Below are positions 2,346-30,157 of a stretch of DNA of 34,642 bases, piece by piece. The notes below the pieces were generated by a model, which saw only the letters and a list, made by a program, of their open reading frames with translations, was not told the DNA's origin and searched no databases. Source of the DNA: a virus. The translations under genes and the position numbers were made by a program. The first letter of the stretch is position 1; every line of letters starts with the position of its first letter. The stretch covers positions 1-34,642 of the IMG/VR virus record IMGVR_UViG_3300045922_000130; one strand, 5' to 3'.

Positions 2346-2361
2346 GTAAACTTATATTAGA
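2346..2361 (+). promoter_or_regulatory. Candidate late promoter, copy 1 (divergent form)
   Basis: GTAAACTTATATTAGA matches the recurring GTAAACTTTAAATAGA at 13 of 16 positions and lies 8 bp before the ATG of the first tail-region gene. Such closeness leaves a very short leader, so the true start site may differ, or the gene may be read from upstream as well. Confidence 0.5.
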
Positions 2362-2369
2362 GGTGCTAT

Positions 2370-3062
2370 ATGCAAAATACTTATAAACATTTTCAGTCTG
2401 GGCTTTATGACTACGCAAAGGTATCCACTACGTCCAACCTCGCTATCCCCTTAGACGTGGCGAGGCAGCATTTATTTTTGCCAGCTAGTGATAGTTTGGA
2501 AGACCCTGTTTTAACTCTTATGATTAAGGGTATAATGGACTACGTACAAAAACTTACTTATAGAACCTTGTTAACCACTCGTTATAAGTGCTACTTAGAT
2601 TATTTACCAAGACAGCCTTTGTTACTTAAAAAAGCTCCCTTTAGAAGTTTAGTTTCTTTTGAGTATTATAAAGATAATGTGTTAACGCCTTTAAATCTAG
2701 CTGATGTTTATACCACCGATAGTAACAGCTACTCAATGATTGACACGGTAAATGGCAAGGATTGGCCTGTTATCGATTATAGAAAGCAAGCTGTTAAGAT
2801 AACATTTGATGCTGGTTATGGAGATACTCACTCAAGTGTACCAGATGACTTAAAAATGGCAATGATCCACCATTTGGCAAAATGGTATGAGCAACGTGGG
2901 GATATGGATGATTTCACCGCACGGAATGAGGGTTTAAAATACTCGCCTCAAACTGCTATACCACATACCTCCAAAATGATATACGCACAATATAAAATAA
3001 ATCAAATGAAGCAAAGAGATAGATATGTATCGGTCCAAGCGGGCTTTCCCATCTCATGGTGA
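2370..3062 (+). CDS. Head-tail connector (phiE125 gp8-like)
   Basis: This 230-aa protein has the plan of the head-tail connector/adaptor family that includes phiE125 gp8 and HK97 gp6. There is an N-terminal LDVARQHL motif (about residues 28-35), a helical bundle with a DYVQKLTYRTLLTTRY-type segment, a central beta stretch (PFRSLVSFEYYKDN), AGYGDT near residue 150, and a helix ending AKWYEQRG. Members form a ring between the portal and the tail stopper. The start has a clear ribosome site (AGAGGTG) and follows the late motif at 2346. It overlaps the next gene by 38 bases. Capsid and portal genes are not upstream, which is unusual: the head module must lie elsewhere in the genome. Family recognition is by motif order. 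Confidence 0.8.
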   Translation: MQNTYKHFQSGLYDYAKVSTTSNLAIPLDVARQHLFLPASDSLEDPVLTLMIKGIMDYVQKLTYRTLLTTRYKCYLDYLPRQPLLLKKAPFRSLVSFEYYKDNVLTPLNLADVYTTDSNSYSMIDTVNGKDWPVIDYRKQAVKITFDAGYGDTHSSVPDDLKMAMIHHLAKWYEQRGDMDDFTARNEGLKYSPQTAIPHTSKMIYAQYKINQMKQRDRYVSVQAGFPISW

Positions 3063-3408
3063 GCTTAAATATCGTATAGATGTTTTCAATAGATATGTAT
3101 CAGGTAACAGTGGGTTGTCTGGTTCAGCGGATTACGGCGACGCAATTAAAGTTTCTAGTATACCATGTAAGTTAGTTACCTTTCAACCTTCGGCGTACTT
3201 TGATGGGGCGCAGGTAAGTAGTGCTGTTACTCATAGATTTTATTTTAGACGTATTTTCTGTCCAGATATAAATATAAGTAATGTAATAAAATATGACGGA
3301 CGGTGGTTTGATATAAAAGATGTTGAACACATTGAAGAAATCGAGCGTTGGTTGATGGTCAACTGCACTGAACGTGGTCCAGAAGAACTTGAAAGTACAA
3401 GCTGGTAA
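3025..3408 (+). CDS. Head-closure / head-tail adaptor (SPP1 gp16-like)
   Basis: A 127-aa protein with the short beta-rich layout of the head-tail joining family: GELKYRIDVF near residues 12-21, a middle with HRFYFRR and a KYDGRWFDIKDVEHIEEIER segment, then a short tail. The family plugs the connector ring and gives the docking surface for the tail. It starts inside the end of the connector gene, with a weak GAG-type ribosome site, which suggests translational coupling; there is no later in-frame start before the conserved GELKYR. Assignment rests on pattern and on gene position between connector and neck genes. Confidence 0.7.
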   Translation: MYRSKRAFPSHGELKYRIDVFNRYVSGNSGLSGSADYGDAIKVSSIPCKLVTFQPSAYFDGAQVSSAVTHRFYFRRIFCPDINISNVIKYDGRWFDIKDVEHIEEIERWLMVNCTERGPEELESTSW

Positions 3409-3413
3409 GTAAA

Positions 3414-4181
3414 ATGGTTGGTCTATATAAATTCACTTTAGCGAAGCCTGGTTGGAGAGCTTATCAGTTCACCAAAACATTTTCCCGTAACCTTACATCA
3501 TCGTTATTTGGATTACATCAACAAGCAAAAGAAGTTTTGAAAGATGGGGTGTATACCTACATAAGTACATCCGTGCCTGCTGGGCGCACATATGAGGTGG
3601 TGAGTAGATTTGTAGGACGCACCACTCGTAAGATGTCAGCTTCGCATAAAGCTAGATACCCTTATCAACAAGAGAGTTCTGTAAGGTCAATGACCAATAA
3701 CTACGTATCTAAGGGACAAGTAAAAACTCGTAAAGTCACACAGTATGAAAGAAACGATGTCTTCTATAATCATACAGCCTCGGCACCAGGTCAACCCCCG
3801 GCTATTATGAGTGGCGATCTGGTGAAAAGTATTTACACTAAAGGTAACAACTCGGAAAGTTTTAGTATTGGGTCAACCTCGTTTTACGGTTCAATTTTTG
3901 AGGGTCACCCTTCACAGCATAACTTAACTGGTGGTGGGGTAGCTGTTGGCGGTCAGTTTGGTGGTTTAAGTGCTGGCAGATACGTATCAGCAATGATGAT
4001 TCACAATTTTGGGGGTGGTGGGGGCAACACTAGTTTGTTGAAAAAACATATTAGTAAAACAAAAGCTTTATATGGCACACGTCCCTTTATTGCCCCCGTC
4101 TTAAAATCTAAAAGAGCCTTTTTAAGAGATTTATATACAACTGCAATTGGTAAGTTTATTGGTAGGTATGGATTTAGATGA
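3414..4181 (+). CDS. Tail completion / neck protein (HK97 gp10-like)
   Basis: The recognisable signature is ASAPGQPPAIMSGDLVKSI near residues 121-139, the proline-glycine motif and following helix of HK97 gp10-type neck proteins, followed by a SIGSTSFYGSIFEGH strand region and a C-terminal TRPFIAPVL motif also typical of the family. At 255 aa it is longer than usual (about 110-180 aa), with an extra basic N-terminal region and a glycine-rich loop (HNFGGGGGN) near residue 197. Its role would be to finish the tail end that joins the head. The stop overlaps the next ATG (ATGA), which shows tight coupling. Confidence 0.7.
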   Translation: MVGLYKFTLAKPGWRAYQFTKTFSRNLTSSLFGLHQQAKEVLKDGVYTYISTSVPAGRTYEVVSRFVGRTTRKMSASHKARYPYQQESSVRSMTNNYVSKGQVKTRKVTQYERNDVFYNHTASAPGQPPAIMSGDLVKSIYTKGNNSESFSIGSTSFYGSIFEGHPSQHNLTGGGVAVGGQFGGLSAGRYVSAMMIHNFGGGGGNTSLLKKHISKTKALYGTRPFIAPVLKSKRAFLRDLYTTAIGKFIGRYGFR

Positions 4182-5278: not shown

Positions 5279-5299
5279 ATTAAGTTAAAAACTTTCCGA

Positions 5300-5315
5300 G
5301 TATACTTTAAATAGA
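5300..5315 (+). promoter_or_regulatory. Candidate late promoter, copy 2
   Basis: GTATACTTTAAATAGA differs at one base from the recurring form and lies 29 bp before the sheath gene. It would boost the most abundant tail proteins, sheath and tube. Confidence 0.65.
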
Positions 5316-5344
5316 GAACATTGTTTATCTAAAAAGGTTTTATA

Positions 5345-6895
5345 ATGACAACAGTATCTTTCCCTAAAACAACTGTTAATATCCAGTCCAATAGCCCTTC
5401 TGTGTCTATTTATCCACACAAAGTGTTATTTATTGGCCAAAAAACTTCCGCAGGAACAGCTACTGCTGGAAACTTAATAGAGGATATTCAAGACGACAAT
5501 AGCTGGGACACTTTATTTGGCAAGCGTTCTATGTTGGCTGGTATGCTCCGTGCTGCCCGGGCAATAAACAAACAAACACGTTTTGACGCTATAGCCTTGA
5601 CTGATGCCTCTGGTGGAGGGTCTGCCGCTGCCACTTCTAGTGTTGTATTTAGTGGAACTGCGACTGCTGCTGGTCAACTTATTTTTGATGTAGGCTCCGA
5701 GACTAACCATCGTTACACAGTGGATGTTGCTGTAGGGGACACTGCTGCTGGTATCGCAACCAAGTTAGAGACACTAGCTGACGCTGATGATTATGCCCCA
5801 TTTACCGCTGCGGTTAACTCTGCCACGGTTACGTTTACAGTTAGTCATGTAGGAACTGTAGGCAACACGTTTGGCATTAAATACAGTGGTTCTATTCCCG
5901 GCATAACTATTACTCTTAACGGTTTTGCGTCGGGCGCAACACCCCCAACGCTAACTAATTTATTTAACGTTATCGGGGAAGAACAATATCAAACTATTGT
6001 ATGGCCTAGTGATTATGGTTTAGCTACAGTTAAAAACTTTTTAGATGCGCGTTTTAACGTAACCGATAAAATTCAAAGCGGTGTGGCGATTTCTAGTAGA
6101 GTTTCCTCATATGCTGACCATCTGACGGAGCTAAATACACATAATAGTCGCTCATTAACAGTGTTATGTTTTAACTTAGTTAATACCAGCACACATAAAG
6201 GTTTAGACCAAGTGGAACTTCCTTATGTGCATAGTGCAAAACACGCTGCAATACGCTCTTTGCGTCTAACTGAAGGTACAAACATTACAGCTTACAATGC
6301 AAGTAATAATGCTGCTCTCGATAATGAGGGTGGTCCACGCCAAGCTACCAAGCCTTATGCGAACACTCCTATTCCGTTGAACCCACTACCTCCTGTAGGT
6401 AAAGGATTTACCTCGGTTCAGATTGCTGGATTAAACGCTGCTGGTGGAAGTGTTATTGGCGCAAATAGACCCCGCACGGCTGTATTAATGGGTGAAATGG
6501 TTACGACCTATAAGACTGATGCCGCTGGTAATGTAGATAAAACTTTTAAGTTTTTAAACTCTATCGATTCATCCACGATTGCACGTGAGTATATTTTTAA
6601 TAATATTAAAAATGACTTGGCGCAAGCTAGATTAACTACAGGTGATTTAATACCTAACGTATCTATGCACAACGCTGTAAGTATCAAAGGATTATTAGTT
6701 AAATACTACGAAGATCTAAGCACTGATCAATGGTGCATTACTCAAGCTAGCGATCGTGCGATCCAATTCTTTAAAGATAATCTTGAAGTCACTGTAGATG
6801 CTGATAACGGTATCGTAAGAGCTGTTATGGTTGTACCTTTGGTTACACAACTTCGTGAGTTTATCGCCACAATGAAGGTTGACTTTAGTCTATAG
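5345..6895 (+). CDS. Tail sheath protein (Mu gpL-like)
   Basis: At 516 aa this has the size and plan of Mu-type contractile sheath proteins. The N-terminus (FPKTTVNIQSNSPS, then HKVLFIGQK) is the extended arm and first strand. A beta-rich insertion domain lies at about residues 95-200 (with FSGTATAAGQL). A conserved central region (QVELPYVHSAKHAAIRSLRL; later PLNPLPPVGKGFT) follows, and a C-terminal helical part with KTFKFLNSIDSSTIAREYIF makes the inter-subunit contacts. It polymerises around the tube and contracts on infection. It is directly followed by the tube gene and has its own late-type promoter and ribosome site (AAAGG). Alanine-glycine-rich, GC-richer codons in the insertion domain are the only oddity. 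Confidence 0.9.
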   Translation: MTTVSFPKTTVNIQSNSPSVSIYPHKVLFIGQKTSAGTATAGNLIEDIQDDNSWDTLFGKRSMLAGMLRAARAINKQTRFDAIALTDASGGGSAAATSSVVFSGTATAAGQLIFDVGSETNHRYTVDVAVGDTAAGIATKLETLADADDYAPFTAAVNSATVTFTVSHVGTVGNTFGIKYSGSIPGITITLNGFASGATPPTLTNLFNVIGEEQYQTIVWPSDYGLATVKNFLDARFNVTDKIQSGVAISSRVSSYADHLTELNTHNSRSLTVLCFNLVNTSTHKGLDQVELPYVHSAKHAAIRSLRLTEGTNITAYNASNNAALDNEGGPRQATKPYANTPIPLNPLPPVGKGFTSVQIAGLNAAGGSVIGANRPRTAVLMGEMVTTYKTDAAGNVDKTFKFLNSIDSSTIAREYIFNNIKNDLAQARLTTGDLIPNVSMHNAVSIKGLLVKYYEDLSTDQWCITQASDRAIQFFKDNLEVTVDADNGIVRAVMVVPLVTQLREFIATMKVDFSL

Positions 6896-6914
6896 GATAG
6901 GTTAGGACGAGAAA

Positions 6915-7379: not shown

Positions 7380-7973
7380 ATGATTTTACCTGTACAAGAG
7401 TTTGTATTTAAGTTTGAAAAAGGATCTTTTTTAAACCCTAAATGGCCTGGTGGCGATGGGTTGGTATTTTTACCAAAGAGCGTAACTTGTTATAGTCCAA
7501 CTTTTCGTCAACGGCAGTATACATCAGTTATCAAAAAAGAACTTTCTAATGGTTTGATGGCCGTTCAGGATGATATGATCAAGATGTTTAAAACATATCA
7601 AGAAGCTATGTCACTTAACAAAGAAAATACTGAAGCGATATCATCAGTCAAAGATAGTGACTTGCAAAAAGGTAAAGATAATAACGACCAAGAGCAAACA
7701 GAAGAAGGTTTAAAGAGTCAAGTCAGCCTTATTTTAGCTCATCCTAAATGTAATTTGGAATTGATACAAGAAGCTGTTTTAGGTTTATTGTTTGATACAA
7801 ACGGTACTCGCAAGCCTACCTTAAATGATGGTAAGGTATCGGCTATTTTAAAATCTGCGCAACAGAGTTTGTTTGAAGATAGTATCGACGATAACGAAAT
7901 GGGACGGTTTATTGTGGAATACCTTTGCGCTTTTTTTCCTTCTTCGTTGCAGAATCAGTTATTGAACGGATAG
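7380..7973 (+). CDS. Tail assembly chaperone, short form (gpG type)
   Basis: This 197-aa protein sits between tube and tape measure and begins the two-frame chaperone region conserved in long-tailed phages (lambda G/GT, P2 E/E', Mu 41/42). It has an N-terminal beta region (QEFVFKFEKGSF, then YSPTFRQRQYTSVIKKE), a charged, disordered-looking middle (about residues 88-115) and a helical end. Near the 3' end the codons GCT TTT TTT CCT contain the slippery heptamer T-TTT-TTT in the correct phase for a -1 shift. Normal termination gives this form; slippage gives a fusion of about 279 aa. The protein coats the tape measure during tail assembly and is not in the virion. Ribosome site AAGGA. Confidence 0.85.
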   Translation: MILPVQEFVFKFEKGSFLNPKWPGGDGLVFLPKSVTCYSPTFRQRQYTSVIKKELSNGLMAVQDDMIKMFKTYQEAMSLNKENTEAISSVKDSDLQKGKDNNDQEQTEEGLKSQVSLILAHPKCNLELIQEAVLGLLFDTNGTRKPTLNDGKVSAILKSAQQSLFEDSIDDNEMGRFIVEYLCAFFPSSLQNQLLNG

Positions 7974-8218
7974 AATCCAAATCTAAAATACCTTATACTG
8001 ATGAAGATATAAGGAAAGAAATGGATACGGCACTAAGCCAAGTTGTAGAGATGATGTTTGGAACTAATCTTCTACAAAAGGGGGCTTTTTTTACGGCTGA
8101 TAGTTATTTAGATATACCAATAGCTGAAATAATCTTTTTAGCAAGTGTCTCTGAAAAAATGGCTGGTAAACTTAGTATAGAAGTCGATAAAGAAATGCAA
8201 CGAAGGCCGAAAAAATAG
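7925..8218 (+). CDS. Tail assembly chaperone, -1 frameshift extension (gpT part)
   Basis: This frame is in the -1 phase relative to the upstream chaperone and overlaps its last 49 bases. Its only possible own start near the front is a TTG with no ribosome site, so I take it as the part added by frameshifting at 7931-7937. After the slip the protein continues SFFVAESVIERIESKSK and adds 93 codons, mostly helical, ending KEMQRRPKK. By analogy to lambda GT the added part would recruit the tube protein to the tape measure complex. It stops exactly where the tape measure gene begins. The frameshift efficiency cannot be read from sequence. Confidence 0.75.
   Translation: MRFFSFFVAESVIERIESKSKIPYTDEDIRKEMDTALSQVVEMMFGTNLLQKGAFFTADSYLDIPIAEIIFLASVSEKMAGKLSIEVDKEMQRRPKK
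7931..7937 (+). other. Programmed -1 frameshift site (T-TTT-TTT)
   Basis: Seven consecutive T residues are read in the zero frame as (GC)T TTT TTT, an ideal X-XXY-YYZ heptamer. Slipping one base back places ribosomes in the open frame that runs to 8218. No obvious strong stem-loop follows within 15 nt, so stimulation, if any, is from elsewhere. Confidence 0.85.
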
Positions 8219-11050
8219 ATGGTTGGCGGATTTTTTGAAGTAGAATATCAGTTCAAGCTAAGGGACATGTTTAGCAAAGAAGCTGATAAGATAATTGCTA
8301 AGTTCGACAAGGTTCGAGATGCTGCAACTAACGCAAATGCTAGGTTTACTGATCTTGCAAAAAATATAAAAACTAGTAGCCAAAACTTAAAACAGTTAAG
8401 TCATGGTATAGCCCCTGTTAATCAAGGGTTAAAAACGATGAACCAATCTACAAAAGCAGTGACGGCATCTGTCAAAGCACAAAACCAAGCCTTAGCTGCA
8501 CAAGCAAGAGCTTTAAGGATGGCGCAAAGGTCTATGGTTGACTATAACCGTATGGCAGGAGTTATGATGCAAGCTGGCCAAGGGTTGTTTAGAACTGGTA
8601 ACATTCTTGGCTTGACTGTCACCGCACCTATTATAGCGTCTGTGTTTAAGGGCGGTAAAGTACTCATGGAAAGAGAAGAGGGAGTCGCCCAGCTTCGTAA
8701 GACAGCGGGTTTAACAAAAGCTAATGCCCCTTATTTTCTAAAAAAAGTTAATGAGTATAGTTCTAAGAATCCAACTTCTACTGAAGAGTTGTTAAGTATT
8801 GCTGGTATACTTGGTCAAGGTGGATTTAGGGCTGGAACAAAAAAAGAAATTGATAATATATTAGTTAAATCTCAAACTGTAGCTAAAATGATGACTGCCT
8901 TTGATATGAACGCAGAACAAGCTGGAACAACTTATTCTAGGTTTTATAACAACACTGCAGAACTTATGAATAAAAATCCTAAAGGTAGGCTTTATGGTAA
9001 GTTCAATGATTATTATATGGATAGACTTATTGACTTTGTCGACTATCAAGAGAACAACAATACAGTTAATGCCTCTCAAATATTTGAAGCCATGAAAACA
9101 AGGACATTGGCTAGTGGTCTGATGATACCTGGCGGAATGGATCCTTTTGAATCTGCCGTGTTTACTACGCAAATGTTGAATTATAAATCCGCAAGTCGTG
9201 GATCGAACATTGTTACACAGTTAATGAAAGATATGGCCGACCCTAAGAAAGTTGGAAAAAAGTTATCCGAGCAATTTTTAGCTAATCCTATGGAAACGCT
9301 TATAAATTTATCTCAGCAAATGAAAACTAAAACTCCAATGGATCAGTATAAAACAGCACTACAAGTGTCGAAAAGTTACGGCGGGGAGTTTACGACAGTA
9401 ATGGCTGGCGTTGATAAAATGGCCTCTGCGCTAAAAATAGCTAAATACCTACAGGATTTAGCTGAAGAAGAAGCGAAAACGGGTAAGAAAAAAAATATAC
9501 CATTATTTGATGAACAAGGTAATGCGTATGGTCTAACAGCTTCGTATGAAATAAAACGTAATACCTTTAAAGCTAAATTAGATACTCTAGGTAATAATAT
9601 AAGAAACTTATTAGCCTCTTTTTTCACTAGAATAGAGCCTATTTTATCTAAGTTTATAGATAAACTAATTCCTAAAATTGCCAAAATGGCTAAAGCAATT
9701 GAAAATATGCCTGAAGAACAACTGATGGCTATTGTAGGGGGTTTAACTTCTTTAGCTTTATTAGGACCAGCTTTAATGCTTGTTGGTACCTTATTAAACA
9801 CAATATCGGCAATTATGAAGTCTATTGCTACAGTAAGATCTGGTGTATTTTTAGATATATTTAGAGAATTTGAGACCTTTATATTTAAGATGCTTGGCTT
9901 AGGTTCACTATTAGGTGTAACTGTTGGAGGTTCGGCCGCAGGATCTGGAGCTAAAGGTATCATTGGTATTGGTAGTTCTGGGGTTAGGGCACTTGGAATT
10001 GGTGGAGCATCTAGGTTGGTTGGAGCTGGGGCATTAGGACTAGGTGTTAGAGGAATAGGCTCTTTCAAATCTGGCTTTGGAGGCATAGGAGCAATTCATC
10101 CTTCATTACTGGCCGCAGCTCAAGTTTCAAAAATTGGTAAGAACCCGTTTGCGTCATCCTTGGGTAATAGTGGTGGTATGTGGAAAGGTTTTAAAAGTAA
10201 TTTAAGAAGTATATTTGAAGTCCCCAAAGCTCATGCTGGTGCAATATTAGGTAATATGGGTGGAGGTAAATTTCTTAATACTTTTAAAGCTATTGGTAAA
10301 AGTTTTGCTGGGGTTAATATAATTAGTTCATTACTTGAAGGTGCTATAAGTGGTAAATGGATGGAAGCATTGTTCAGCGGTGGTGGAGGTATGCTTGGTG
10401 GAGCTTTAGGTGGCGCTGTTATGGGAACGATGGGAGGTGGTCCAACAGGAACTTTACTCGGTGCTTTGGGGGGGGGTATTCTCGGATCAGGTATGGGTGC
10501 AGATATGGGTAAGACCATGAAAAATCTTTTCCCTGACATAGATAAAGTTTTCATCGAATCCTTAAAAATAGTATATAATCTTCTGAAAACAATTTGGAAT
10601 ATAGTATCTGGATTATGGAAAGATATTATTGGATTGCTAAATGATTTAAATAAAGGTGCGCCTGGTTCAAATAAGACATTGCAAGACATAAACTGGTGGG
10701 TTACAGGCACTTATAAAAACTTAAAGTTGATTAACGATCAGTTCGATAAGTTAACAGCTAGATTTGTAGCTAAAGAAAAAGAGCGTAAAGATAAAGAAGC
10801 TTTTGATAAAGATACTAAAGCTGCGCGGGAAGAATACGAGAAAGAGCAGGCTGACAGAAAAAGAAATAAAGAAAACTTAGAAAAGGGTTTGGGCGATGGT
10901 TTTAGAGGCGTAGACCACAATTTAAAAATAATGGTAACTAATGCTAAGGGGGACCCCATACCCGCCAACTTAAATAAAGGCTCGTCATCAGTTACTAAGG
11001 ATTTTAGTAACGCACCCCTTAGCATACAATTATGGCCAGGGGTTAGATAA
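8219..11050 (+). CDS. Tape measure protein
   Basis: The largest single structural gene in the early tail block (943 aa) immediately follows the chaperone with no gap. Residues 1-110 are predicted coiled coil rich in Gln, Asn and Ala. A TMP-type conserved region follows (about 120-320, with GLFRTGNILGLTVTAPII and MEREEGVAQLRKTAGLTK), typical of phage tape measures. A hydrophobic segment lies at about residues 502-530 and a long glycine-rich, gly-zipper-like region at about 560-640 and 720-765, likely the part that enters the membrane at DNA ejection. The charged helix at about 845-890 is again coiled coil. By the usual rule its helix length sets tail length. Ribosome site GAAGG. Confidence 0.9.
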   Translation: MVGGFFEVEYQFKLRDMFSKEADKIIAKFDKVRDAATNANARFTDLAKNIKTSSQNLKQLSHGIAPVNQGLKTMNQSTKAVTASVKAQNQALAAQARALRMAQRSMVDYNRMAGVMMQAGQGLFRTGNILGLTVTAPIIASVFKGGKVLMEREEGVAQLRKTAGLTKANAPYFLKKVNEYSSKNPTSTEELLSIAGILGQGGFRAGTKKEIDNILVKSQTVAKMMTAFDMNAEQAGTTYSRFYNNTAELMNKNPKGRLYGKFNDYYMDRLIDFVDYQENNNTVNASQIFEAMKTRTLASGLMIPGGMDPFESAVFTTQMLNYKSASRGSNIVTQLMKDMADPKKVGKKLSEQFLANPMETLINLSQQMKTKTPMDQYKTALQVSKSYGGEFTTVMAGVDKMASALKIAKYLQDLAEEEAKTGKKKNIPLFDEQGNAYGLTASYEIKRNTFKAKLDTLGNNIRNLLASFFTRIEPILSKFIDKLIPKIAKMAKAIENMPEEQLMAIVGGLTSLALLGPALMLVGTLLNTISAIMKSIATVRSGVFLDIFREFETFIFKMLGLGSLLGVTVGGSAAGSGAKGIIGIGSSGVRALGIGGASRLVGAGALGLGVRGIGSFKSGFGGIGAIHPSLLAAAQVSKIGKNPFASSLGNSGGMWKGFKSNLRSIFEVPKAHAGAILGNMGGGKFLNTFKAIGKSFAGVNIISSLLEGAISGKWMEALFSGGGGMLGGALGGAVMGTMGGGPTGTLLGALGGGILGSGMGADMGKTMKNLFPDIDKVFIESLKIVYNLLKTIWNIVSGLWKDIIGLLNDLNKGAPGSNKTLQDINWWVTGTYKNLKLINDQFDKLTARFVAKEKERKDKEAFDKDTKAAREEYEKEQADRKRNKENLEKGLGDGFRGVDHNLKIMVTNAKGDPIPANLNKGSSSVTKDFSNAPLSIQLWPGVR

Positions 11051-14890: not shown

Positions 14891-14906
14891 GTAAACTTTA
14901 AATAGA
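14891..14906 (+). promoter_or_regulatory. Candidate late promoter, copy 3
   Basis: GTAAACTTTAAATAGA, the consensus form, in the 53-bp gap between the gp46-like gene and the first spike gene. No other copy lies before 27520, so it would drive about 12.5 kb of spike and lysis genes. Confidence 0.7.
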
Positions 14907-20998: not shown

Positions 20999-21025
20999 TG
21001 TCAAAAGATTTTACAAAAAATATAA
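20993..21025 (+). repeat. Start repeat S1 (33 bp, identical to 27464-27496)
   Basis: The 33 bases from TTATAATGTCAAAAG onward are identical to 27464-27496. Here they hold the true start of the spike gene; at the second site they form a relic start. The GC-rich spike DNA begins directly after. Confidence 0.9.
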
Positions 21026-24000
21026 AAGATTACGTTGTTAGTGTAAAAGATTTTGGTGCAAAGGGTGACGGCGTTACGGATGACACCGTGGCCATACAAT
21101 CAGCTTTAGATAGTTCACAAGGTACGATAGTTACTTTCCCCAAGGGTGTCTACCGATGCACTTCCACACTATACGTGCCAAGTGGCACCACACTAGAAGG
21201 CATGGGCGTTGGTGGATGGAGAGCTAACCCGTTTAGTAGTCAGGCAGATGTAACCCTGTATGACTTAACTACAGGCAGTAACTTGTTATTTACAGGTGAT
21301 GGGGCGAAAGTTCACTACTTAGACTTTGTTACCAAGAACGATGAAGCTGGATTTAGCCGAAGCAACATAAACAGGTTACATAACAACGCAAACGATGAGA
21401 AGTTTGAGCTGTACGATTATACAAATGAAGATGCCAGCGGAACCACCAAGGCAACCCTAAAGCCATTCAGCGTATGTGTAATGTTGGGGGACGGGATTAA
21501 ACAGCACAGGACTATATTAAGAAACCTACGTGTTGTGACTAGCTGTCCTTCTGGGTCCGAGGTATACGGAACAGCTGGGTATGCAGTGCAGAATGAAATA
21601 CTGCCTTGGGCAAGGTGGGATATAGGTGTTTGGTCTAGGAGTGGATGGGATAACGCCATTTATGACAGCCAAGTGGTAGGCTACTACGGCATTAATGGGC
21701 TTTTAATAACCACCATGGCTAACACGACCCCTTACGAAGGTACCAGTCCAAACTTGGGGTTTGCTGAGAACTTTAGTATGCAAAACACAAGGATTCAATC
21801 GGGGCTTGCTATAAGGTCAGGCGATGTAATCCCAGTTCTTAGCAAAACGTCAAATAGCATTACTGTCGAGTGGAGTGCCTCACACAGATTTAACACTAGC
21901 GGAAGCTTAACCACTGATGATGGAACCTTAGTCTACACTGGGCTAACATACACCGCAGGATCCCCAAACACCCTAACCTTTACAGGCATAGCTAATACCT
22001 CCAACGTGTCGTCAACGGCTGGTGGCACATTAATACGCAGGACCCACAACGGAGGCCTTGCAAACACAAGCTTTATAAACTGTGAAATTAGTGACTTTGG
22101 CCATTCAAGCAGGACAGACAGGGCAAGCGACAGTTACCCCACAGGTTACAAGAGTAAGTACCGCCCAGCACTTGAGATGAGCGGGCACCCCTTGAGGGGG
22201 GTTAGCTTTATAGACTGCTTGTATGACTCTACAAGCTACGCCCACATCCACCTTGGCTTAGCAAGGGATATAGAGTTTAACAACTGTTACGGGGAGCCTA
22301 AGGCTTACAAGCTTACCCCAACAAGCAATTCATTGAGTGGTGGTGGGCTATTTATTTGTGGTCCCCGCAGCACAAAGGATTATGGCAGAATTTACAAAGG
22401 CGTTATTACTAATTATGGCATTACTTTTGTTGGTAATGTAAACCGGGAACCTTTAGTACCTGTCATTACAGGGACGAGAGTGTCTGGGTTTACCGATGTT
22501 TTTAACCCAGCTCAATACTTTGACAACAGATGGTTTCATCAGCTAGGAACTAGCGCCGCCGGGCAAAAAGATATAAATATGCTCCCCCTAAAAGGCGGCA
22601 GGCTTGTTATGAAAGACGCAAGCGGTAATGAACGTTGGGCACTTGATGATACCACCGACACCATTACTGACTCCACGCAAAGCACAACTTATGCTTTTGG
22701 TGCACAGCTAATCGTCCCTAATGACAGAGAGTTTGAAATAAAAAACGCAACAGGGTTAAAGTTTCTTGAAAAACCTAGCAACGATAACAATGTTATTCAT
22801 CGCAACTTGGCTTTTAATGCTTCTGACAGCACCCTTACTATATCATCTGGAGCTATTACTGTAACAAATAACTTCACTAGAATAGACACTGAAGGCTCTG
22901 CTGCTTTAGATGAGCTTACAACCATCAACAAGGCCAACAGTGGGGGGACGTTTCCGCTTTGGTTGCGTACAGTTTCATCTAGTCGAGATGTGCTGATTAA
23001 ACATCAGCAAGCTGGCAATATCCGCACCTTTAACGGTCAAGATATACTACTAGACCACACAAATAAAGTGGCTTTCTTGTTTTGGAATGGGGTTTTCTGG
23101 CACGCCATATCGCTAGATAGTGCTACGACACAACTAATAAATGCTCACGGCGATACTGACTGGATGCACATGCTGCTTTATGGGCAGTCGTTAAGTTATG
23201 GTGCAAGCTCTACCCCTGTTATATCCACAACACAGCCCTACAATAATGTGAAGATGAATGGCACGGTAATCACTGATAATTTTATTGGGACGAGAACCAG
23301 CTTTGATGCCTTGGTAGAAACCAGCCGAGAGACCCCTACAAGTGGCATGCTCAACAAACTAAAGCAGAGACTTGGGAACACTGCGTTTACTAATACCAGA
23401 TTTATAGGTACTGCCGCTGGTGATGGTGGGCAAACCTTAGAGCAATTGGGGAAGGGAAGCTTTAACTTTAACAGAATGATTGGCGAGATACAGTCGGCTA
23501 AAAACATAGCCACTGGGCTAGGGGACACCTATCAAGTTGGGGCTATGGGCTTTGTTCATGGTGAATCCGCTTACAGAGATGCGCTTAGCTCTGCTGAGTA
23601 CCAACGCCAATTCCTTAATTTCAAGCGTGACTTTGCTGATGCTGTAAGCAATGTTACCAGACAAAACAATGTGCCTGTTATGATAACTGCGCAGACGGCT
23701 TCTAGTCGATATTATGCTGGGTCAACAAAGTTACCTACTATTGCTCTGATACAAGCAGCTATGGCTAAGGACTACAAGGATATAACAATAGCCTGCCCCA
23801 TCTATTGCTTGGAGCATGCGGAGGACAACCTGCACCTTTCCGCTGAAGGTAGTCGGATGCTTGGCTATTATCTGGGTTTGGCGGCAAAAAGAACTGTGTT
23901 TGACAAGGTGGATTGGCGACCTTTAGAAATGATTGCGCTAAACGTCCAGCCTACTTTTGTAGATGTGAAGCACAACGTCCCTTACGGAAAGATACAATTT

Positions 24001-25689
24001 AAAACAGGTATTGTTGCGGATACAACGAACAAAGGCTTTGATATTTATGATGAGACCAACACACTAAGGGATATAATAACTGCTGTACAAATTATAAACT
24101 TTGACACAGTAAGGCTCACGTTGTCGTCCCCCTTGGCAATAGGCGACAGTGTATGCTATGCGTGGGGCAGAAGCTCTCAAAACGGTTCCAGCTTTGGAGG
24201 TAACGCTACAGGACCCAGAGGCAACCTCTGCGACCAGCAAGGCGATATAGAAAACTACACAGGTGTTGACAACAATACTCGTTATTTGGATAATTACGCT
24301 TTAGTAGGAAAAATGACCATCGGCGAGTCTTCATTTGGGGGGACTGACGCGGATACGGCTGCTAAAGCAAGAGCAAACTTAGGCATCCGCCCCGAGGCTA
24401 CAAGGGAGCTGATGCGCCGCCCCACCCTAACGATTGATGGTGTTAATGGCGTGTTTTTTAAGCGAAACAGGGCGGTATCTATCAGCCAAGGCGACCTGTT
24501 AGCCTCCAGCTTTGCCACCTTTACCCGAGCCACGGCTTCGCTTTACACTGACGTAAGCGGGACAATACGATCCGCTGCTAGTGGCGTGCCTACCTACAAC
24601 TACCCACGCAACAGCCAAAGTGGAGGCTTGGGCATATTTAGGGCTGCTACCAACCTAATCGAGTGGAGCCAAGACTTTGGCAACGCATGGTGGACAAAAA
24701 CTAACGCAACAGTACCCTCAACCACTGGGGCTGGCGCACCCGATGGTACGGCTACCGTCAACACTATTCAAGCCAGTGCGGGGGCTGGCATACACGGCGT
24801 GCAATCTACATCAATGGGGAGCCTTACCACCACGGATAACTATGGCTACAGCGTGTACCTTGCAGCAGGCACGGCCAGTAAGGCAAGGATTAAGGTAGTC
24901 AACTCATCTAGCATGGTAATAGGCCAAGTGGATATTGACTTAACCACCTTTGTTGCCTCGGGCGTGGACGCTCTCAATTGTGCTATCTTCCCCCCTGTGG
25001 GCAATAGCAACTTAGGCAGGGTGGAGCTTTACCCTAGTGCTGCTATTGGCACAACAAGCGCAACCGTTGAGATACTGATACTAGACGGCAGCGGGAACGA
25101 AAGCTACACCGCAGCAGGCACAGAGACAATCCTTGCTTGGGGCGCACAGTTTGAGCGTTACAGGCCGACCCCATACTTGCTAAGTGCTGGTAGCAGTGGC
25201 GCACGCAACGCAGACACTTTGACTTTGGCTACAACAGAGGAGTGGTACGGCACGCCAAGGGGCATCACCTTGGCGATGGATACCGTGCTTGAACACTTTA
25301 ACGGCCCAACTACTGCCGAGTACAGGCGTTACCTGTTTACCACGCGCCTTGGTATAACTGATTTTATAAAGGCATATGTGGTTGGCAATCAAATAGTTAT
25401 TGGAGCAAAAAACAACAACGACACCGTAACGCTTACAACGGTTGCAGGCGTAACACTTACCCCCAACACGCAAATACGCTTAGCTGTCTCTACTAATGGT
25501 GCAAACGTGAATGTAGGAGTAAACGGCACAACCTTTAGCTTTGCCCGCACCTTACGCCCCAACGTTTTTACTCAACTCTCAGTGGGGGCAAACGAAAGTG
25601 ACCTAAGGCAACTCAACGCCCGCCTAGGGAAGCTAGACTTTTGGCCATTGGCCATGACGGCCAACCAGCTTGGAGACCTAACACGATGA
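20998..25689 (+). CDS. Giant tailspike: beta-helix, SGNH esterase, lectin-like end
   Basis: At 1563 aa this is the longest gene. KDFGAKGDGVTDDTVAIQ (residues 17-34) opens a pectate-lyase-3 beta-helix without an N-terminal adaptor. After about residue 640 there is a mid domain, then an SGNH/sialate-O-acetylesterase-like domain at about 715-970: GQS with Ser731, an AGDGGQT loop, HGES (854-857) and DNLH (Asp943, His946) match the SGNH blocks. From LGIRPEATREL (about 1130) to the end it is related to the end of the 14933 spike. So it may both cleave and deacetylate a surface glycan. It is GC-richer than its neighbours: I count 34 G or C in 24961-25020 but 17 in 26821-26880. The first 9 codons are AT-rich and come from repeat S1. 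Overlaps the genes on both sides by a few bases. Confidence 0.83.
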   Translation: MSKDFTKNIKDYVVSVKDFGAKGDGVTDDTVAIQSALDSSQGTIVTFPKGVYRCTSTLYVPSGTTLEGMGVGGWRANPFSSQADVTLYDLTTGSNLLFTGDGAKVHYLDFVTKNDEAGFSRSNINRLHNNANDEKFELYDYTNEDASGTTKATLKPFSVCVMLGDGIKQHRTILRNLRVVTSCPSGSEVYGTAGYAVQNEILPWARWDIGVWSRSGWDNAIYDSQVVGYYGINGLLITTMANTTPYEGTSPNLGFAENFSMQNTRIQSGLAIRSGDVIPVLSKTSNSITVEWSASHRFNTSGSLTTDDGTLVYTGLTYTAGSPNTLTFTGIANTSNVSSTAGGTLIRRTHNGGLANTSFINCEISDFGHSSRTDRASDSYPTGYKSKYRPALEMSGHPLRGVSFIDCLYDSTSYAHIHLGLARDIEFNNCYGEPKAYKLTPTSNSLSGGGLFICGPRSTKDYGRIYKGVITNYGITFVGNVNREPLVPVITGTRVSGFTDVFNPAQYFDNRWFHQLGTSAAGQKDINMLPLKGGRLVMKDASGNERWALDDTTDTITDSTQSTTYAFGAQLIVPNDREFEIKNATGLKFLEKPSNDNNVIHRNLAFNASDSTLTISSGAITVTNNFTRIDTEGSAALDELTTINKANSGGTFPLWLRTVSSSRDVLIKHQQAGNIRTFNGQDILLDHTNKVAFLFWNGVFWHAISLDSATTQLINAHGDTDWMHMLLYGQSLSYGASSTPVISTTQPYNNVKMNGTVITDNFIGTRTSFDALVETSRETPTSGMLNKLKQRLGNTAFTNTRFIGTAAGDGGQTLEQLGKGSFNFNRMIGEIQSAKNIATGLGDTYQVGAMGFVHGESAYRDALSSAEYQRQFLNFKRDFADAVSNVTRQNNVPVMITAQTASSRYYAGSTKLPTIALIQAAMAKDYKDITIACPIYCLEHAEDNLHLSAEGSRMLGYYLGLAAKRTVFDKVDWRPLEMIALNVQPTFVDVKHNVPYGKIQFKTGIVADTTNKGFDIYDETNTLRDIITAVQIINFDTVRLTLSSPLAIGDSVCYAWGRSSQNGSSFGGNATGPRGNLCDQQGDIENYTGVDNNTRYLDNYALVGKMTIGESSFGGTDADTAAKARANLGIRPEATRELMRRPTLTIDGVNGVFFKRNRAVSISQGDLLASSFATFTRATASLYTDVSGTIRSAASGVPTYNYPRNSQSGGLGIFRAATNLIEWSQDFGNAWWTKTNATVPSTTGAGAPDGTATVNTIQASAGAGIHGVQSTSMGSLTTTDNYGYSVYLAAGTASKARIKVVNSSSMVIGQVDIDLTTFVASGVDALNCAIFPPVGNSNLGRVELYPSAAIGTTSATVEILILDGSGNESYTAAGTETILAWGAQFERYRPTPYLLSAGSSGARNADTLTLATTEEWYGTPRGITLAMDTVLEHFNGPTTAEYRRYLFTTRLGITDFIKAYVVGNQIVIGAKNNNDTVTLTTVAGVTLTPNTQIRLAVSTNGANVNVGVNGTTFSFARTLRPNVFTQLSVGANESDLRQLNARLGKLDFWPLAMTANQLGDLTR

Positions 25690-25934
25690 GCTATCACCCC
25701 AACAACTACTTTTTGGTAGGAAACCTTGAAGGGGAGCAAGGGTATTACGTCAACGCCCCTGTAACCCCCTTAACAGGCGACTTGCCCGCCGATGTGTTGG
25801 CTTACAGTATTGCCCCGCCTGCCACGCCCAAGGTAAGCCTGCTAGGGGTGGATGCGGCCGATGTTGTCTACCTAAAGTTTGCTGACGAAGCCGAAGCCCG
25901 CACCGTGCTTGGCTTGCCACAAGACGAGGAGTAA
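25686..25934 (+). CDS. Small spike-associated protein, cassette 2 copy
   Basis: An 82-aa protein started by the ATG that overlaps the stop of the spike gene (ATGA). An upstream in-frame start inside the spike gene is less likely. It shares with the 18178 product the GDLPADVLAY motif, PPATP and an aliphatic end with acidic tail, and takes the same place after a spike, so the two are homologous parts of duplicated cassettes. Codon use is GC-rich, like the spike before it. Function unknown. Confidence 0.75.
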   Translation: MSYHPNNYFLVGNLEGEQGYYVNAPVTPLTGDLPADVLAYSIAPPATPKVSLLGVDAADVVYLKFADEAEARTVLGLPQDEE

Positions 25935-25938
25935 TTCC

Positions 25939-26226
25939 ATGACAGAAGTGGAACTTATTAAACTAACCGTTGCAGTGCTTGGCAATAGCCCTGTTGCAGC
26001 TGGCATGGTGGCCTCTGCCATGATCCTTAAAAGCGTGATAACCCGCTGGCTTGATTTGCGAGACAGGGAGCTGGAAAAAGAGCCACGGGAAAACAAAGAG
26101 GGGATTATTACAGGCCTCAAGGGTGTGACTAAGCAGATTGCAGAAGCAGTAGATACAACCAAGGCAGGGGCTAGCACCTTGCTTGACCAAGGCTTACTAA
26201 GGGGAGGACACATCATTTTATGTTAA
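25939..26226 (+). CDS. Holin-like small membrane protein, cassette 2, with a junction-made C-terminus
   Basis: Start chosen at the ATG at 25939 because GAGGAG lies 6 nt upstream; longer forms begin inside the previous gene. The 95-aa product has one hydrophobic helix at about residues 10-33 (VAVLGNSPVAAGMVASAMI), then a charged region (DLRDRELEKEPRENKE) and an amphipathic end, resembling a phage holin or holin-like accessory protein. The last five codons (HIILC) and the stop are read out of frame from the spike-end relic E1 at 26210-26267, so the original C-terminus was probably lost when this block was joined. Confidence 0.6.
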   Translation: MTEVELIKLTVAVLGNSPVAAGMVASAMILKSVITRWLDLRDRELEKEPRENKEGIITGLKGVTKQIAEAVDTTKAGASTLLDQGLLRGGHIILC

Positions 26227-26267
26227 AGAGTCTGGAGCAGGTAACACTGGATGGGTTGCGAAATAAT
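26210..26267 (+). pseudogene. Relic of a spike gene 3' end (E1, 57 of 58 bp as in 30058-30115)
   Basis: These 58 bases are the same, but for one base, as the last 58 around the stop of the spike gene at 27577-30114. In the old frame they still encode SFYVKESGAGNTGWVAK and a TAA, with nothing of that gene in front. They mark the right edge of the GC-rich block and lie directly before the hydrolase gene, so a whole spike gene once ended here. Confidence 0.9.
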
Positions 26268-26921
26268 ATGAATAAAGATACTGTTTTAATTGTTCACGGT
26301 GTTGGCGAAGGATTTTCAACTGAAGTCACGGTTGATGCTATTTCAAAAGTTTTGAAAATTGACCATAATCGCATTAGACTATTTGATTATGCGAAATATC
26401 TCGATTCTATTATTTGGCCTAGGTATACTTTATTCCCTATAACTATGTGGGCTAAAAAAAATAAGTTTGCAGATCAAGTTGGCGATGTTACAGCATGGGT
26501 CGGCTCTGGAGGAGCTAGAGAAAGAATAGTTTCAAATCTATTAAAAACTATATTATATGAAAAACCCAAATATATTGTAGCACATAGTTTAGGTAGTGTT
26601 ATAGGTTATCAAGCATTACTAAAATGTAATGACTTTAAAGGGGTACCTGAGCTTGATTATAACCCTATTTATGTTGGACTAGGTAGTCCTTTACATCTTT
26701 GGACGTTGAGGCAACTTAGTGGCTTGAATAATGAACATAATACACATATAAGTGAAAATAGTGTTTTTATTCAGGGTAAAAAAGATCCAATAGCTAAGTG
26801 GGGTAAAAACCCTTGGAAGTTTTTAGATAATAATGTTAATAATTTAGGGGTGCTTACCCCTAATATTGATCACGACTTAATAGGTTATTTAAATTATATT
26901 GCAGAGGAAGTTAAGTTATGA
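26268..26921 (+). CDS. Alpha/beta-hydrolase (lipase/esterase type)
   Basis: The 217-aa protein begins with a strand and oxyanion-type loop (TVLIVHGVGEG, residues 5-15). It carries the nucleophile elbow AHSLGS with Ser107, and likely acid and base at Asp173 (GKKDP) and His202 (DHDLIGYL). This is the alpha/beta-hydrolase triad order. It stands just before the amidase, their frames overlapping by four bases, so a role in lysis or in cutting a lipid or ester bond in the envelope is reasonable, as LysB does in mycobacteriophages; that host type is not implied. I start it at ATG 26268. A longer form from 26220 would be read out of frame through the spike relic, and although GGGGAGG lies 12 nt before that ATG, its 16 extra residues look accidental. 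AT-rich again. Confidence 0.75.
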   Translation: MNKDTVLIVHGVGEGFSTEVTVDAISKVLKIDHNRIRLFDYAKYLDSIIWPRYTLFPITMWAKKNKFADQVGDVTAWVGSGGARERIVSNLLKTILYEKPKYIVAHSLGSVIGYQALLKCNDFKGVPELDYNPIYVGLGSPLHLWTLRQLSGLNNEHNTHISENSVFIQGKKDPIAKWGKNPWKFLDNNVNNLGVLTPNIDHDLIGYLNYIAEEVKL

Positions 26922-27460
26922 GCAAACCTAAAAGAATAATTATTCATTGGACTGCAGGAGGGTTAAAAGCTAATTCAACTGATTTAAGCCATTACCACTA
27001 TATTTTTGAGGGGGATGGTACTATAAGAAACGGTCGGCATAGTGTATTATCTAATTGCCCTATTGTTAAAGATAGGGAATATGCCATGCACTGTGGTGGA
27101 GGTAACTCTTGGTCGGCGGGATATGCGTTATGTGGAGGTCCCCGTGGTTATAGGTTGGGGGAGATAACTCGTTTGTCGTATGAAAGAATGTGTCTTCGTA
27201 TAGCTCAAGATATACATAAATGGGGTATCACTTTAGGTAAAGATACCGTTATGACCCACTATGAGTTTGGGTTAGCTAACCCTAGAACATCTAGCGCTGG
27301 GAAGCCGGATATTAGTAGCTTGCCTTGGGCACCTGAAATACATGCTAAGGATGTCGGCGATCATATTAGAAGTTCAATAAATTGGTATTTAAAAAATCAA
27401 GTATTGAAAAAAGTTGTGAAAGAAAAATCACCAATCCCTGATAATGGTTCAGAGGATTAG
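26918..27460 (+). CDS. Endolysin: N-acetylmuramoyl-L-alanine amidase (PGRP/amidase-2 type)
   Basis: A 180-aa enzyme expected to cut the bond between N-acetylmuramic acid and the L-alanine of the peptide stem at the end of infection. The fold signature is RIIIHWTAGG at the start (zinc ligand His10), SHYHYIFEGDGTI, the AGYALCGG region, and THYEFG (His114), with Asp131 in GKPD at the place of the third ligand. T7 lysozyme has Cys there and many amidases Asp or Cys. No signal peptide or cell-wall-binding domain is present; the last 30 residues are charged. It overlaps the hydrolase by four bases. It therefore needs a holin, perhaps one of the membrane proteins at 18454 or 25939. Confidence 0.87.
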   Translation: MSKPKRIIIHWTAGGLKANSTDLSHYHYIFEGDGTIRNGRHSVLSNCPIVKDREYAMHCGGGNSWSAGYALCGGPRGYRLGEITRLSYERMCLRIAQDIHKWGITLGKDTVMTHYEFGLANPRTSSAGKPDISSLPWAPEIHAKDVGDHIRSSINWYLKNQVLKKVVKEKSPIPDNGSED

Positions 27461-27463
27461 GTG

Positions 27464-27496
27464 TTATAATGTCAAAAGATTTTACAAAAAATATAA
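27464..27496 (+). repeat. Start repeat S2 (33 bp, identical to 20993-21025)
   Basis: Second copy of the spike start repeat, three bases after the amidase stop. After base 27496 the two copies diverge. Confidence 0.9.
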
Positions 27497-27516
27497 TAAA
27501 ATACGAAACCTTCTAA
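27469..27516 (+). pseudogene. Relic spike start, 15-codon frame
   Basis: ATG 27469 opens the frame MSKDFTKNIIKYETF and a stop. The first nine residues equal those of the 20998 spike; then the frame is lost. It is the orphan 5' end of a spike gene whose body has been replaced by the promoter and gene that follow. Confidence 0.85.
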
Positions 27517-27519
27517 AGA

Positions 27520-27535
27520 GTAAACTTTAAGTAGA
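27520..27535 (+). promoter_or_regulatory. Candidate late promoter, copy 4
   Basis: GTAAACTTTAAGTAGA, one base from the consensus form, 41 bp before the fourth spike gene and just after the relic start. It would give this spike gene its own late transcript. Confidence 0.65.
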
Positions 27536-27576
27536 GTGTGCCTATTTGGCATTAAATAAGTTTGCGAGAATTTTAA

Positions 27577-30114
27577 ATGTCAGAAATCCAAAAAGTATAT
27601 TCACCAAAAAAATTAAGTGACCTTGTTAGCTTACCTAACTTAAGTGATGACACTGTTGTATTAGCGAGTAATAATAATCAAACGGGCAAACTAACTTTAT
27701 TAGGTTTACGTCAATACTTAAATGTGGATTCAATTGATACTGACTTTGCCGGTGTTTTGGCAAGTATTGGCACTTTAAATGAAAACGTTGCTCAAAATAC
27801 TGCTGATATTGAAGGTTTAGAAACAGTTAGTGCTACAAAACTGGGTTATAGTATTGTAACTGGAAATACTGTAGTTAATAGTCCTGCTGGTGATATAGCA
27901 TTTAATGTGAATGGAAATCAAGCACTTAATGTTACTTCTAGTGGTGTTGGATATGGTATAAATAATGTTAAAGACTTAGTTGGTGATGTAAACCCTGAAG
28001 GTGTTATATCAGCTAATAAAGGTAGTACCTATAGAAATTATAATGGTAGTGGTGGTCAAACACTTTGGCATAAAGTTCAAGGAAATGATGCTAACGGATG
28101 GTTGCCTGTTTCATCTAGTGTTGGCGTTAATGTAAAAGACTTTGGCGCAAAAGGTGATGGGGTTACGGACGATACCGTAGCTATTCAAGCTGCCTTAACC
28201 TTTGGGGCTGGAAATACAATATATTTTCCTAAGGGTAATTATATATGTTCCAACACACTAATTCTTCCAGACGCAACGACTCTAATTGGAGCAGGGGTTG
28301 GTCATTGGAGACCAGGAACCTTTAATGACTTAGATGAATATACGTTAGATCATGGAACTAACTTAGTTTTTGTGGGCACTGGGCCAAAGACCTATACAAT
28401 GGACTTTGTGACAGATATGCGCTGTTCTGGGCATGTTTTTACAAATCCAGAAATAGAATACACCCTTGATAGTGAGTTTTCATTAACTAACTTTACAAAT
28501 AATGATGCCTCCGAGGTTACATCTGCAACTTTAAAACCTTTTAGTGTCGCTATATTTTCTAACTCTCGTAATGGTAACATATTAAAAAATATGAGAGTTG
28601 TGCTTAACAACCCTAGTGTTGGGGAACAATATGGGGTAGGTAACTACAGAAGTGTGTCATCTTTATCATGGGGGGATAATTGGGATGTTGGCATATTCTC
28701 ATCATCTACAAGAGCATTTGAAACCCACAATGTTCAAGTTGTTGGTTACTGGAGAATTGCGGCTTTACTGCTATCCCCAGTAGACTATGGGTCAGAGGGG
28801 TTATCCGGGCTATCAGAGATGTGTAAATTTTACGATAGTATTTTCCAAGGGTTACGTGGAGTTTCCTTAAGATCTGGTGATCAATGGCCTATTGTAAGTA
28901 AAACGAGTAATAGTGTTACGACTAGATGGACAGGTAGCCATACTTTCCCATTGTCTGGTAATATAAGAATAGATGGTTCTATTTATTCTTACACTGGACT
29001 AACTTATAGTGCTGCTGGACCAATTTTAACTTTCACTGGGATATCAGACACTTCCTCTGTAGTTGCTGGCCAAAGTTTAATTGAGCGGACTTCCACACAA
29101 GGTTTAGCTAATACCACATTTTATGGGTGTGATATTACAGACTTAAGTCATAGTTCACGAATCCTTGAATATAATCCAGAATTCACTTTGGATGCTCGCC
29201 AGCCAGGTTCTGCACTAGAAATATCTGGTCAAGACTTAAGGGGTATTAATTTTATAGGGTGTTCTTTTTATGTTAATGGACCAGTATTAGGACACTTGGG
29301 GCGTGCTAGAAATATTAATTTCATAAGTTGTCATTTTGAAACAAAAACTAACAATAGTGCCGTATCTACAAACAGTGGTATCCTAGGTTCCGCATGGCTT
29401 GCCGGTGGGGATCAAAGTAATTCAGATAATTACCCCCTTACTAGAACTGACGATGTTAGGTTTATTGACACGATTGCTGATGACCCAAGGATTGATCGAT
29501 CTCCATTAATACCCTCTTCTAGTGGTAGTCGTCTAAAAGATTGTGGTTTTTTTAGACCAAATCAATACGTAGATACCTCCTATCCCACCAATTCTTACCC
29601 TAATCAATGGCAAAAAAATTATAGTACGGGAACATGGGGTGTCCAAAGTTCAACTGGGGTGCCACGCCTCGTTGTTCATGATACGCATGTGCAATCAGCA
29701 TCGGATTTTAGAGTAAGCAATTCAGCTAATAGATTACAACTAGAGCAAACAGACGCTCCAGTTAATGAGAAAGTCTGGGAGTTCACCAATACAAACTCTA
29801 GTGATGGGACTTTAATTCTACGAACAGCTTTAGATAACTTTAGTCCTGGAAATAATGCTTATACCATTTTACGGGATACTAGCAATGTGGTGGGGCAAAC
29901 TTGGAACTTGAATAGTGGGTTGTTTAGTTTTGAGGGTGGACCTATCCGTCTTGGATCTAGTGGTGCGCCAACGGTATTCACTGGATCAGGGACACCCGAA
30001 GGTGTTATAACCGCCCCTATCGGTTCCACGTATCATCGTACCGATGGAGGGGCGGGTACATCATTTTATGTTAAAGAGTCTGGAGCAGGCAACACTGGAT
30101 GGGTTGCGAAATAA
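27577..30114 (+). CDS. Tailspike with adaptor, beta-helix and short end module
   Basis: The 845-aa protein starts with the adaptor (LPNLSDDTVVLASNNNQTGK, residues 18-37) and a short helix with heptads. A module at about residues 132-172 carries NPEGVISANKGSTYRNYNG and ends in GNDANGWLPV. KDFGAKGDGVTDDTVAIQ (about 189-206) opens a pectate-lyase-3 beta-helix clearly related to that of the 20998 spike (shared LKPFSV, SKTSNS, LANT.F..C, RG..FI.C blocks). It ends with a second copy of the module, TPEGVITAPIGSTYHRTDGG, closing SGAGNTGWVAK. It lacks the lectin-like end and esterase. This is the gene whose 3' end matches relic E1. It probably degrades or binds a host surface glycan different from that of the other spikes. 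Confidence 0.82.
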   Translation: MSEIQKVYSPKKLSDLVSLPNLSDDTVVLASNNNQTGKLTLLGLRQYLNVDSIDTDFAGVLASIGTLNENVAQNTADIEGLETVSATKLGYSIVTGNTVVNSPAGDIAFNVNGNQALNVTSSGVGYGINNVKDLVGDVNPEGVISANKGSTYRNYNGSGGQTLWHKVQGNDANGWLPVSSSVGVNVKDFGAKGDGVTDDTVAIQAALTFGAGNTIYFPKGNYICSNTLILPDATTLIGAGVGHWRPGTFNDLDEYTLDHGTNLVFVGTGPKTYTMDFVTDMRCSGHVFTNPEIEYTLDSEFSLTNFTNNDASEVTSATLKPFSVAIFSNSRNGNILKNMRVVLNNPSVGEQYGVGNYRSVSSLSWGDNWDVGIFSSSTRAFETHNVQVVGYWRIAALLLSPVDYGSEGLSGLSEMCKFYDSIFQGLRGVSLRSGDQWPIVSKTSNSVTTRWTGSHTFPLSGNIRIDGSIYSYTGLTYSAAGPILTFTGISDTSSVVAGQSLIERTSTQGLANTTFYGCDITDLSHSSRILEYNPEFTLDARQPGSALEISGQDLRGINFIGCSFYVNGPVLGHLGRARNINFISCHFETKTNNSAVSTNSGILGSAWLAGGDQSNSDNYPLTRTDDVRFIDTIADDPRIDRSPLIPSSSGSRLKDCGFFRPNQYVDTSYPTNSYPNQWQKNYSTGTWGVQSSTGVPRLVVHDTHVQSASDFRVSNSANRLQLEQTDAPVNEKVWEFTNTNSSDGTLILRTALDNFSPGNNAYTILRDTSNVVGQTWNLNSGLFSFEGGPIRLGSSGAPTVFTGSGTPEGVITAPIGSTYHRTDGGAGTSFYVKESGAGNTGWVAK

Positions 30115-30115
30115 T
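30058..30115 (+). repeat. End repeat E2 (in-frame copy of 26210-26267)
   Basis: The 58 bases covering the last 18 codons and stop of the spike gene plus one base; one difference from E1 (C here, T there, silent in the spike frame: GGC-AAC against GGT-AAC). Confidence 0.9.
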
Positions 30116-30130
30116 TTATTAAATCTTTTT

Positions 30131-30157
30131 GTTTACCGTAGGTAAACTTTAAATAGA
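30131..30157 (+). promoter_or_regulatory. Candidate late promoter, copy 5, overlapping a palindrome
   Basis: GTAAACTTTAAATAGA (30142-30157) is the consensus form, 25 bp before the baseplate J gene. The palindrome GTTTACC-GTA-GGTAAAC (30131-30147) overlaps its 5' half. The dyad is absent at the other four copies and could be an operator or a weak terminator stem for the spike gene. Confidence 0.65.

Follow-up and report, generated by a model that had tools for sequence, protein, structure and literature searches.

Six copies of a promoter-like element precede structural genes of a tailed virus that encodes an RpoS-like sigma factor

Record IMGVR_UViG_3300045922_000130 of IMG/VR, analysed here in its entirety (34,642 bases, the window), comes from an uncharacterised tailed virus of bacteria with a genome that is about 62% AT. 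Six copies of a 16-bp element of the form GTAWACTT-N4-TAGA (the motif) precede its structural genes. By sequence statistics these copies are a secure promoter-like class, and the class very probably acts late in infection, a timing taken from the content of the genes downstream. Our favoured reading, which we hold to be probable though well short of assured, is that the motif is the core of late promoters that lack a -35 element and are read by host core RNA polymerase together with an RpoS-like sigma factor encoded by the phage; its presence and placement make this sigma the probable reader. The promoter sequence is known for few phage sigma factors, and protein sequence seldom allows specificity to be predicted. 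In this record, presence and placement link a sigma factor recognisably related to RpoS to a promoter that departs from the sigma-S consensus at a single base. The differing base (-13) corresponds to RpoS K173, a residue apparently changed in the phage sigma, which provides a sharp test of a change in sigma specificity.

In the alignment of the six copies, GTAWACTT and TAGA are invariant and enclose four variable bases, and a purine directly follows the motif in every copy. Exact matches to GTAWACTTNNNNTAGA numbered six on the plus strand and zero on the minus strand, versus 0.015 and 0.010 expected from a first-order Markov model (about 0.03 in all). When up to three mismatches were allowed there were seven matches versus 1.56 expected, a count reached by none of 100 shuffled sequences; the seventh match, at 25867 on the minus strand with three changes, borders the putative GC-rich tail-fibre cassette and appears to be a chance hit. 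When the regions upstream of genes were searched de novo, the motif ranked first, with a score of 13 versus 2-3 after shuffling. All six copies end 8-41 nucleotides (nt) upstream of the start of a structural-gene block (Table 1). By arithmetic from the coordinates, a random site has a probability of about 0.016 of lying within 41 nt before any of the 27 starts on the right strand, and six of six would do so with a probability of about 1e-11.

Table 1 Coordinates of the motif copies, the genes that follow them, the sigma gene and the sigma-70-type promoters
Feature	Position	Strand	Details
Motif copy GTAAACTTATATTAGA	2346..2361	+	Before neck block (gene 2370-3062 onward); 8 nt from motif end to start codon; proposed start A 2359
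Motif copy GTATACTTTAAATAGA	5300..5315	+	Before tail sheath gene; 29 nt to start codon; proposed start A 5313
Motif copy GTAAACTTAGTATAGA	8166..8181	+	Before tape-measure gene, inside end of tail-chaperone second frame; 37 nt to start codon
Motif copy GTAAACTTTAAATAGA	14891..14906	+	Before tail spike gene; 26 nt to start codon
Motif copy GTAAACTTTAAGTAGA	27520..27535	+	Before second tail fibre gene; 41 nt to start codon
Motif copy GTAAACTTTAAATAGA	30142..30157	+	Before baseplate wedge block; 25 nt to start codon
Head-tail adaptor gene	2370-3062	+	First gene of neck block
Tail sheath gene	5345-6895	+	
Tape-measure gene	8219-11050	+	
Tail spike gene	14933-18178	+	
Second tail fibre gene	27577-30114	+	
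Baseplate wedge block	30183-33347	+	
RpoS-like sigma-70-family factor	33794..34642	+	Cut off by record end; matches Sigma70_r2, phrog_351 and RpoS structures
Promoter GTGACA-17-TATAGT	33351..33379	+	TG upstream of second hexamer; before gene 33397 and sigma gene; 10/12 consensus bases
Promoter TTGACT-17-TATACT	2280..2308	-	Leftward promoter of tRNA block

A preliminary description of this DNA had reported five copies, all on the plus strand, two of them identical (14891 and 30142), two with one change (5300 and 27520) and one with three (2346). These were all recovered, but the count is six, the copy at 8166 before the tape-measure gene having been overlooked. The description's proposal of a phage-specific promoter class ahead of structural genes is supported by the six exact copies, their placement and the de novo ranking, and the enrichment before genes held across the whole record: every exact copy precedes a structural block and none is on the minus strand. 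Chance repetition in an AT-rich genome, or a set of ordinary sigma-70 promoters, might be argued from the base composition and from the finding that sigma-70-like matches at 9 of 12 positions are about as frequent in the genome as in shuffles. However, with six exact copies on one strand, all before genes and none with a -35, this explanation is hardly credible.

Read as a promoter extending from about -13 to +3, the motif consists of G at -13, the hexamer TAWACT at -12 to -7, T at -6, a discriminator of four mostly A/T bases, T at -1 and AGA beginning at +1. The proposed A+1 gives a pyrimidine-purine start at the canonical distance from the -10 hexamer. At copy 2346 the Shine-Dalgarno sequence of gene 2370 (AGAGGTG) starts inside the AGA, and transcription starting downstream of the AGA is unlikely there because this sequence would be removed. 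The preliminary description also held that the motif does not resemble a sigma-70 promoter. This stands for the -35 region, since the best TTGACA matches at spacings of 15-19 nt above the -10 summed to 17 over the six sites, which is the background value (P 0.74), and a sigma-70 promoter reading of the motif was rejected for lack of any TTGACA-like box above that level. The test works, because it picked out TTGACA or TTGACT at all 14 sites of another phage record, G001 (below). The left block, in contrast, is nearly a sigma-S-type -10 element, and to that extent the resemblance had been missed.

From -60 to the motif no conserved block was found among the six copies, only two isolated T columns (offsets -14 and -6), and about 6% of the upstream columns would stand out by chance. 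As at T4 middle promoters, host sigma-70 polymerase might be assisted by a phage activator that takes the place of the -35 contact; this is suggested by the missing -35 and by TAWACT, which can act as a sigma-70 -10 element, but the lack of a conserved activator box in that interval makes such an arrangement decidedly unlikely. Promoters of a T7-type single-subunit RNA polymerase encoded outside the record would likewise be compact, contiguous elements without a -35 that end at the presumed start, and the motif has AT-rich bases just before a TAGA that could hold that start. We regard this as quite unlikely: what is conserved is a hexamer of the -10 kind, separated by a variable four-base gap from a pyrimidine-purine start that lies at the canonical distance, a sigma gene is present in the record, and no such polymerase was matched there, though the record is partial and the controls of that search gave no signal either.

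A perfect palindrome, GTTTACCGTAGGTAAAC (GTTTACC-GTA-GGTAAAC, 30130-30146), overlaps the left end of the 30142 copy and could be an operator; it was not seen at the other five copies. It is one of two features, together with the location of the copies in untranslated leaders, that would suit a motif that is not a promoter at all, being instead an RNA element, a processing site or a protein-binding site. However, the palindrome is restricted to one copy, the Rfam search gave tRNA only and no other family, and the layout of -10 and start would then be a coincidence, all of which renders a non-promoter role very improbable.

Sigma-S-dependent promoters of E. coli have the consensus TNTGCYAAACTT at -17 to -6, together with a discriminator rich in A/T and a -35 that is weakly conserved (PMC4447067). 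The phage block GTAAACTT agrees with the CYAAACTT of this E. coli consensus at seven of eight positions, and the AT-rich discriminator and weak -35 of such promoters also fit (PMC4447067). The sigma-S-type TAAACTT occupies -12 to -6 in five of the six copies, with TATACTT in the remaining one. The phage motif differs in having G rather than C at -13 in all six copies and in residing in a phage with its own sigma. The pattern would suit direct reading by host sigma-S (or, poorly, by sigma-70) with the phage sigma serving other promoters, but a phage sigma with altered reading residues is encoded in the same record and we consider direct reading by a host sigma unlikely.

The divergent sigma factor noted in the preliminary description was confirmed by its sigma-70-family matches and changed DNA-reading residues, although the gene is incomplete in the window and runs off the record end. 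Its frame opens at a TTG (33794), and the GTG at 33824, which has the Shine-Dalgarno sequence AAGGAG (33812-33817), appears the likelier start. The protein matches Sigma70_r2 at 8.7e-13 and the profile phrog_351 at 3.2e-32. As the latter match spans residues 23-282, the protein probably includes region 3 and the beginning of region 4; the Pfam models of sigma regions 3 and 4 gave no match to the phage sigma. The closest solved structures are those of RpoS (6e-21); the best SigA reached 8e-18 and RpoD about 1e-14, and identity to RpoS across region 2 is 42%. The residues aligned to W433, Q437, T440 and R441 in the DNA-reading helix of sigma-70 are S, K, N and M, respectively. RpoS K173, which favours C at -13, aligns to G in the phage sigma, and another alignment opens a gap and puts K nearby, making this match less certain. 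An AlphaFold model of the sigma computed without an alignment had a mean predicted local distance difference test (pLDDT) score of 37 and was not used.

The preliminary description was also right that leftward promoters and the one before the sigma gene are sigma-70-like; the leftward one recovered here precedes the tRNA genes (Table 1). The -10 region of the leftward promoter, GTATACTTAGAGTATA, also matches the motif with one mismatch. Under the favoured reading by the phage sigma, host sigma-70 would transcribe the sigma gene from its ordinary promoter, the sequence of which is present and the use of which is presumed, and the sigma would be made first and then turn on the structural genes. 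Like other members of its family it would bind host core RNA polymerase. The holoenzyme would read the -35-less extended -10 element with its start site, the placement of which is observed, and transcription would start at A+1 of the AGA and run rightward through the structural blocks: neck, sheath, tape measure to baseplate, spike and fibres, second fibre, and baseplate wedge.

T4 late promoters, which have the element TATAAATA, lack a -35 and are read through the phage sigma gp55, and also require gp33 and the sliding clamp. The motif shares with them the missing -35 and a phage sigma as proposed reader. A gp55-type late promoter was nevertheless rejected, as the TATAAATA core occurs in none of the six copies and the aligned bases are the variable ones. 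The middle/late promoters of phiEco32 gp36, shown experimentally, likewise combine a phage sigma with a single element lacking a -35 before structural genes, and their start is 6-8 bp downstream of the element (PMC8948821); a start at a comparable distance is also proposed here. In that podovirus, however, the element is tAATGTAtA and the sigma is without region 4 homology (PMC8948821), whereas here GTAWACTT-N4-TAGA accompanies an RpoS-like sigma. For gp47 of phage 7-11, a phage of Gammaproteobacteria, about eight late promoters were shown experimentally before structural genes (PMC8948821). The likeness is a phage sigma with promoters ahead of structural genes, and the difference is that the 7-11 promoters are bipartite, GTAAtg-16-aCTA (PMC8948821). 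This type was rejected here because none of the columns 22-25 bases below the start of the motif is conserved and at copy 2346 the start would fall inside the gene. Both a T4-type and a 7-11-type reading need a start further downstream and would thus remove the Shine-Dalgarno sequence of gene 2370. As a kind, phages that combine a sigma of their own with late promoters are already known; what appears new, within a limited literature search, is the recognition sequence and its difference from the sigma-S consensus by one base.

No close relative of the virus was present in the phage collection searched, and the sheath search gave 62 loci in viral contigs and four in genomes at roughly 35-51% identity. 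Among 28 related virus records (about 0.77 Mb) the exact motif was found as one isolated copy (G044) and no comparable sigma was detected, many of these records being fragments. A de novo upstream search of nine relatives treated in the same way did not find the motif. This joint absence of sigma and motif is compatible with their pairing and short of proof because so many of the related records are fragments. Sigma matches turned up in two bacterial bins and are probably the bacteria's own sigma factors. The distant sigma relatives (L177-L191) contained no exact motif; L184 has 29 TAWACTT words, mostly antisense to genes. Single-protein scans with the sigma, the baseplate hub and the baseplate wedge gave no matches. 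One sheath gene (L142), 44% identical to that of the window, sits on a 1.8-Mb contig assigned by binning to a Thermoplasmatales archaeon (CP070712), possibly as a prophage or through mis-binning. When IMG/VR was scanned for the 16-mer, many copies turned up in one phage, the 76-kb G001 (IMG/VR record 3300009702_000022; L068, L073-L076), in which at least 14 promoters, spread over both strands, follow the pattern TTGACA-16/17-TATACTTTAARTAGA. These are of the sigma-70 type, and their discriminator and start region vary unusually little. G001 was discarded as evidence of motif conservation, the sites being ordinary TTGACA-16/17-TATACT promoters and no sigma having been found in that record.

Several points weigh against the phage sigma as reader. 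There is no close relative in which the motif co-varies with the sigma, and the record is partial, so that another reader (a single-subunit polymerase or an activator) could lie outside it. A sigma usually reads the -35 with region 4, of which the phage protein appears to have the beginning, but the six sites share no -35. The residues that read -12 are changed although the T at -12 is retained. Finally, when the motif of the 7-11 sigma was predicted from sequence alone (PMC4331800), the result differed from the consensus later mapped experimentally (PMC8948821). Compared with that prediction, the copies here are longer, better conserved and placed on one side only; we would take the precedent to weaken the assignment of a reader more than the promoter status of the motif. 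As to origin, it is possible, if doubtful, that the phage lineage captured an RpoS-like stress sigma whose preference at -13 shifted from C to G, a sigma-S-type extended -10 element without a -35 thereby becoming a private late promoter that host sigmas read poorly.

The genome is probably larger than this record, which would be a fragment of it. Its rightward myovirus structural module encodes a head-tail adaptor, head closure, sheath, tape measure, baseplate hub and wedge, spikes, fibres and an endolysin, with a short leftward block including four tRNA genes on the left side and most of one sigma-70-family gene at the right end. The overlap (7925-7973) of the tail-chaperone pair (7380-7973 and 7925-8218) holds the run GCTTTTTTTCC, which would fit a programmed -1 frameshift giving a G-GT-type fusion of the pair. 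The tail-fibre genes show a duplication within 20993-30115, with a 42-nt repeat at the gene starts (20993 and 27464, 93%) and a 68-nt repeat at the gene ends (26200 and 30048, 94%), and the two fibres are 39% identical across 543 amino acids. GC climbs to 0.51 at 24-26 kb, which suggests that the tail-fibre region is an imported cassette. A minus-strand fragment at 1312-1590 matches the C-terminal end of transposase families (phrog_506) and is probably a decayed insertion element. The gene adjoining the endolysin (26268-26921) encodes an alpha/beta-hydrolase-like protein with IVHGVG and AHSLGS motifs and no family match, possibly a lipase acting in lysis.
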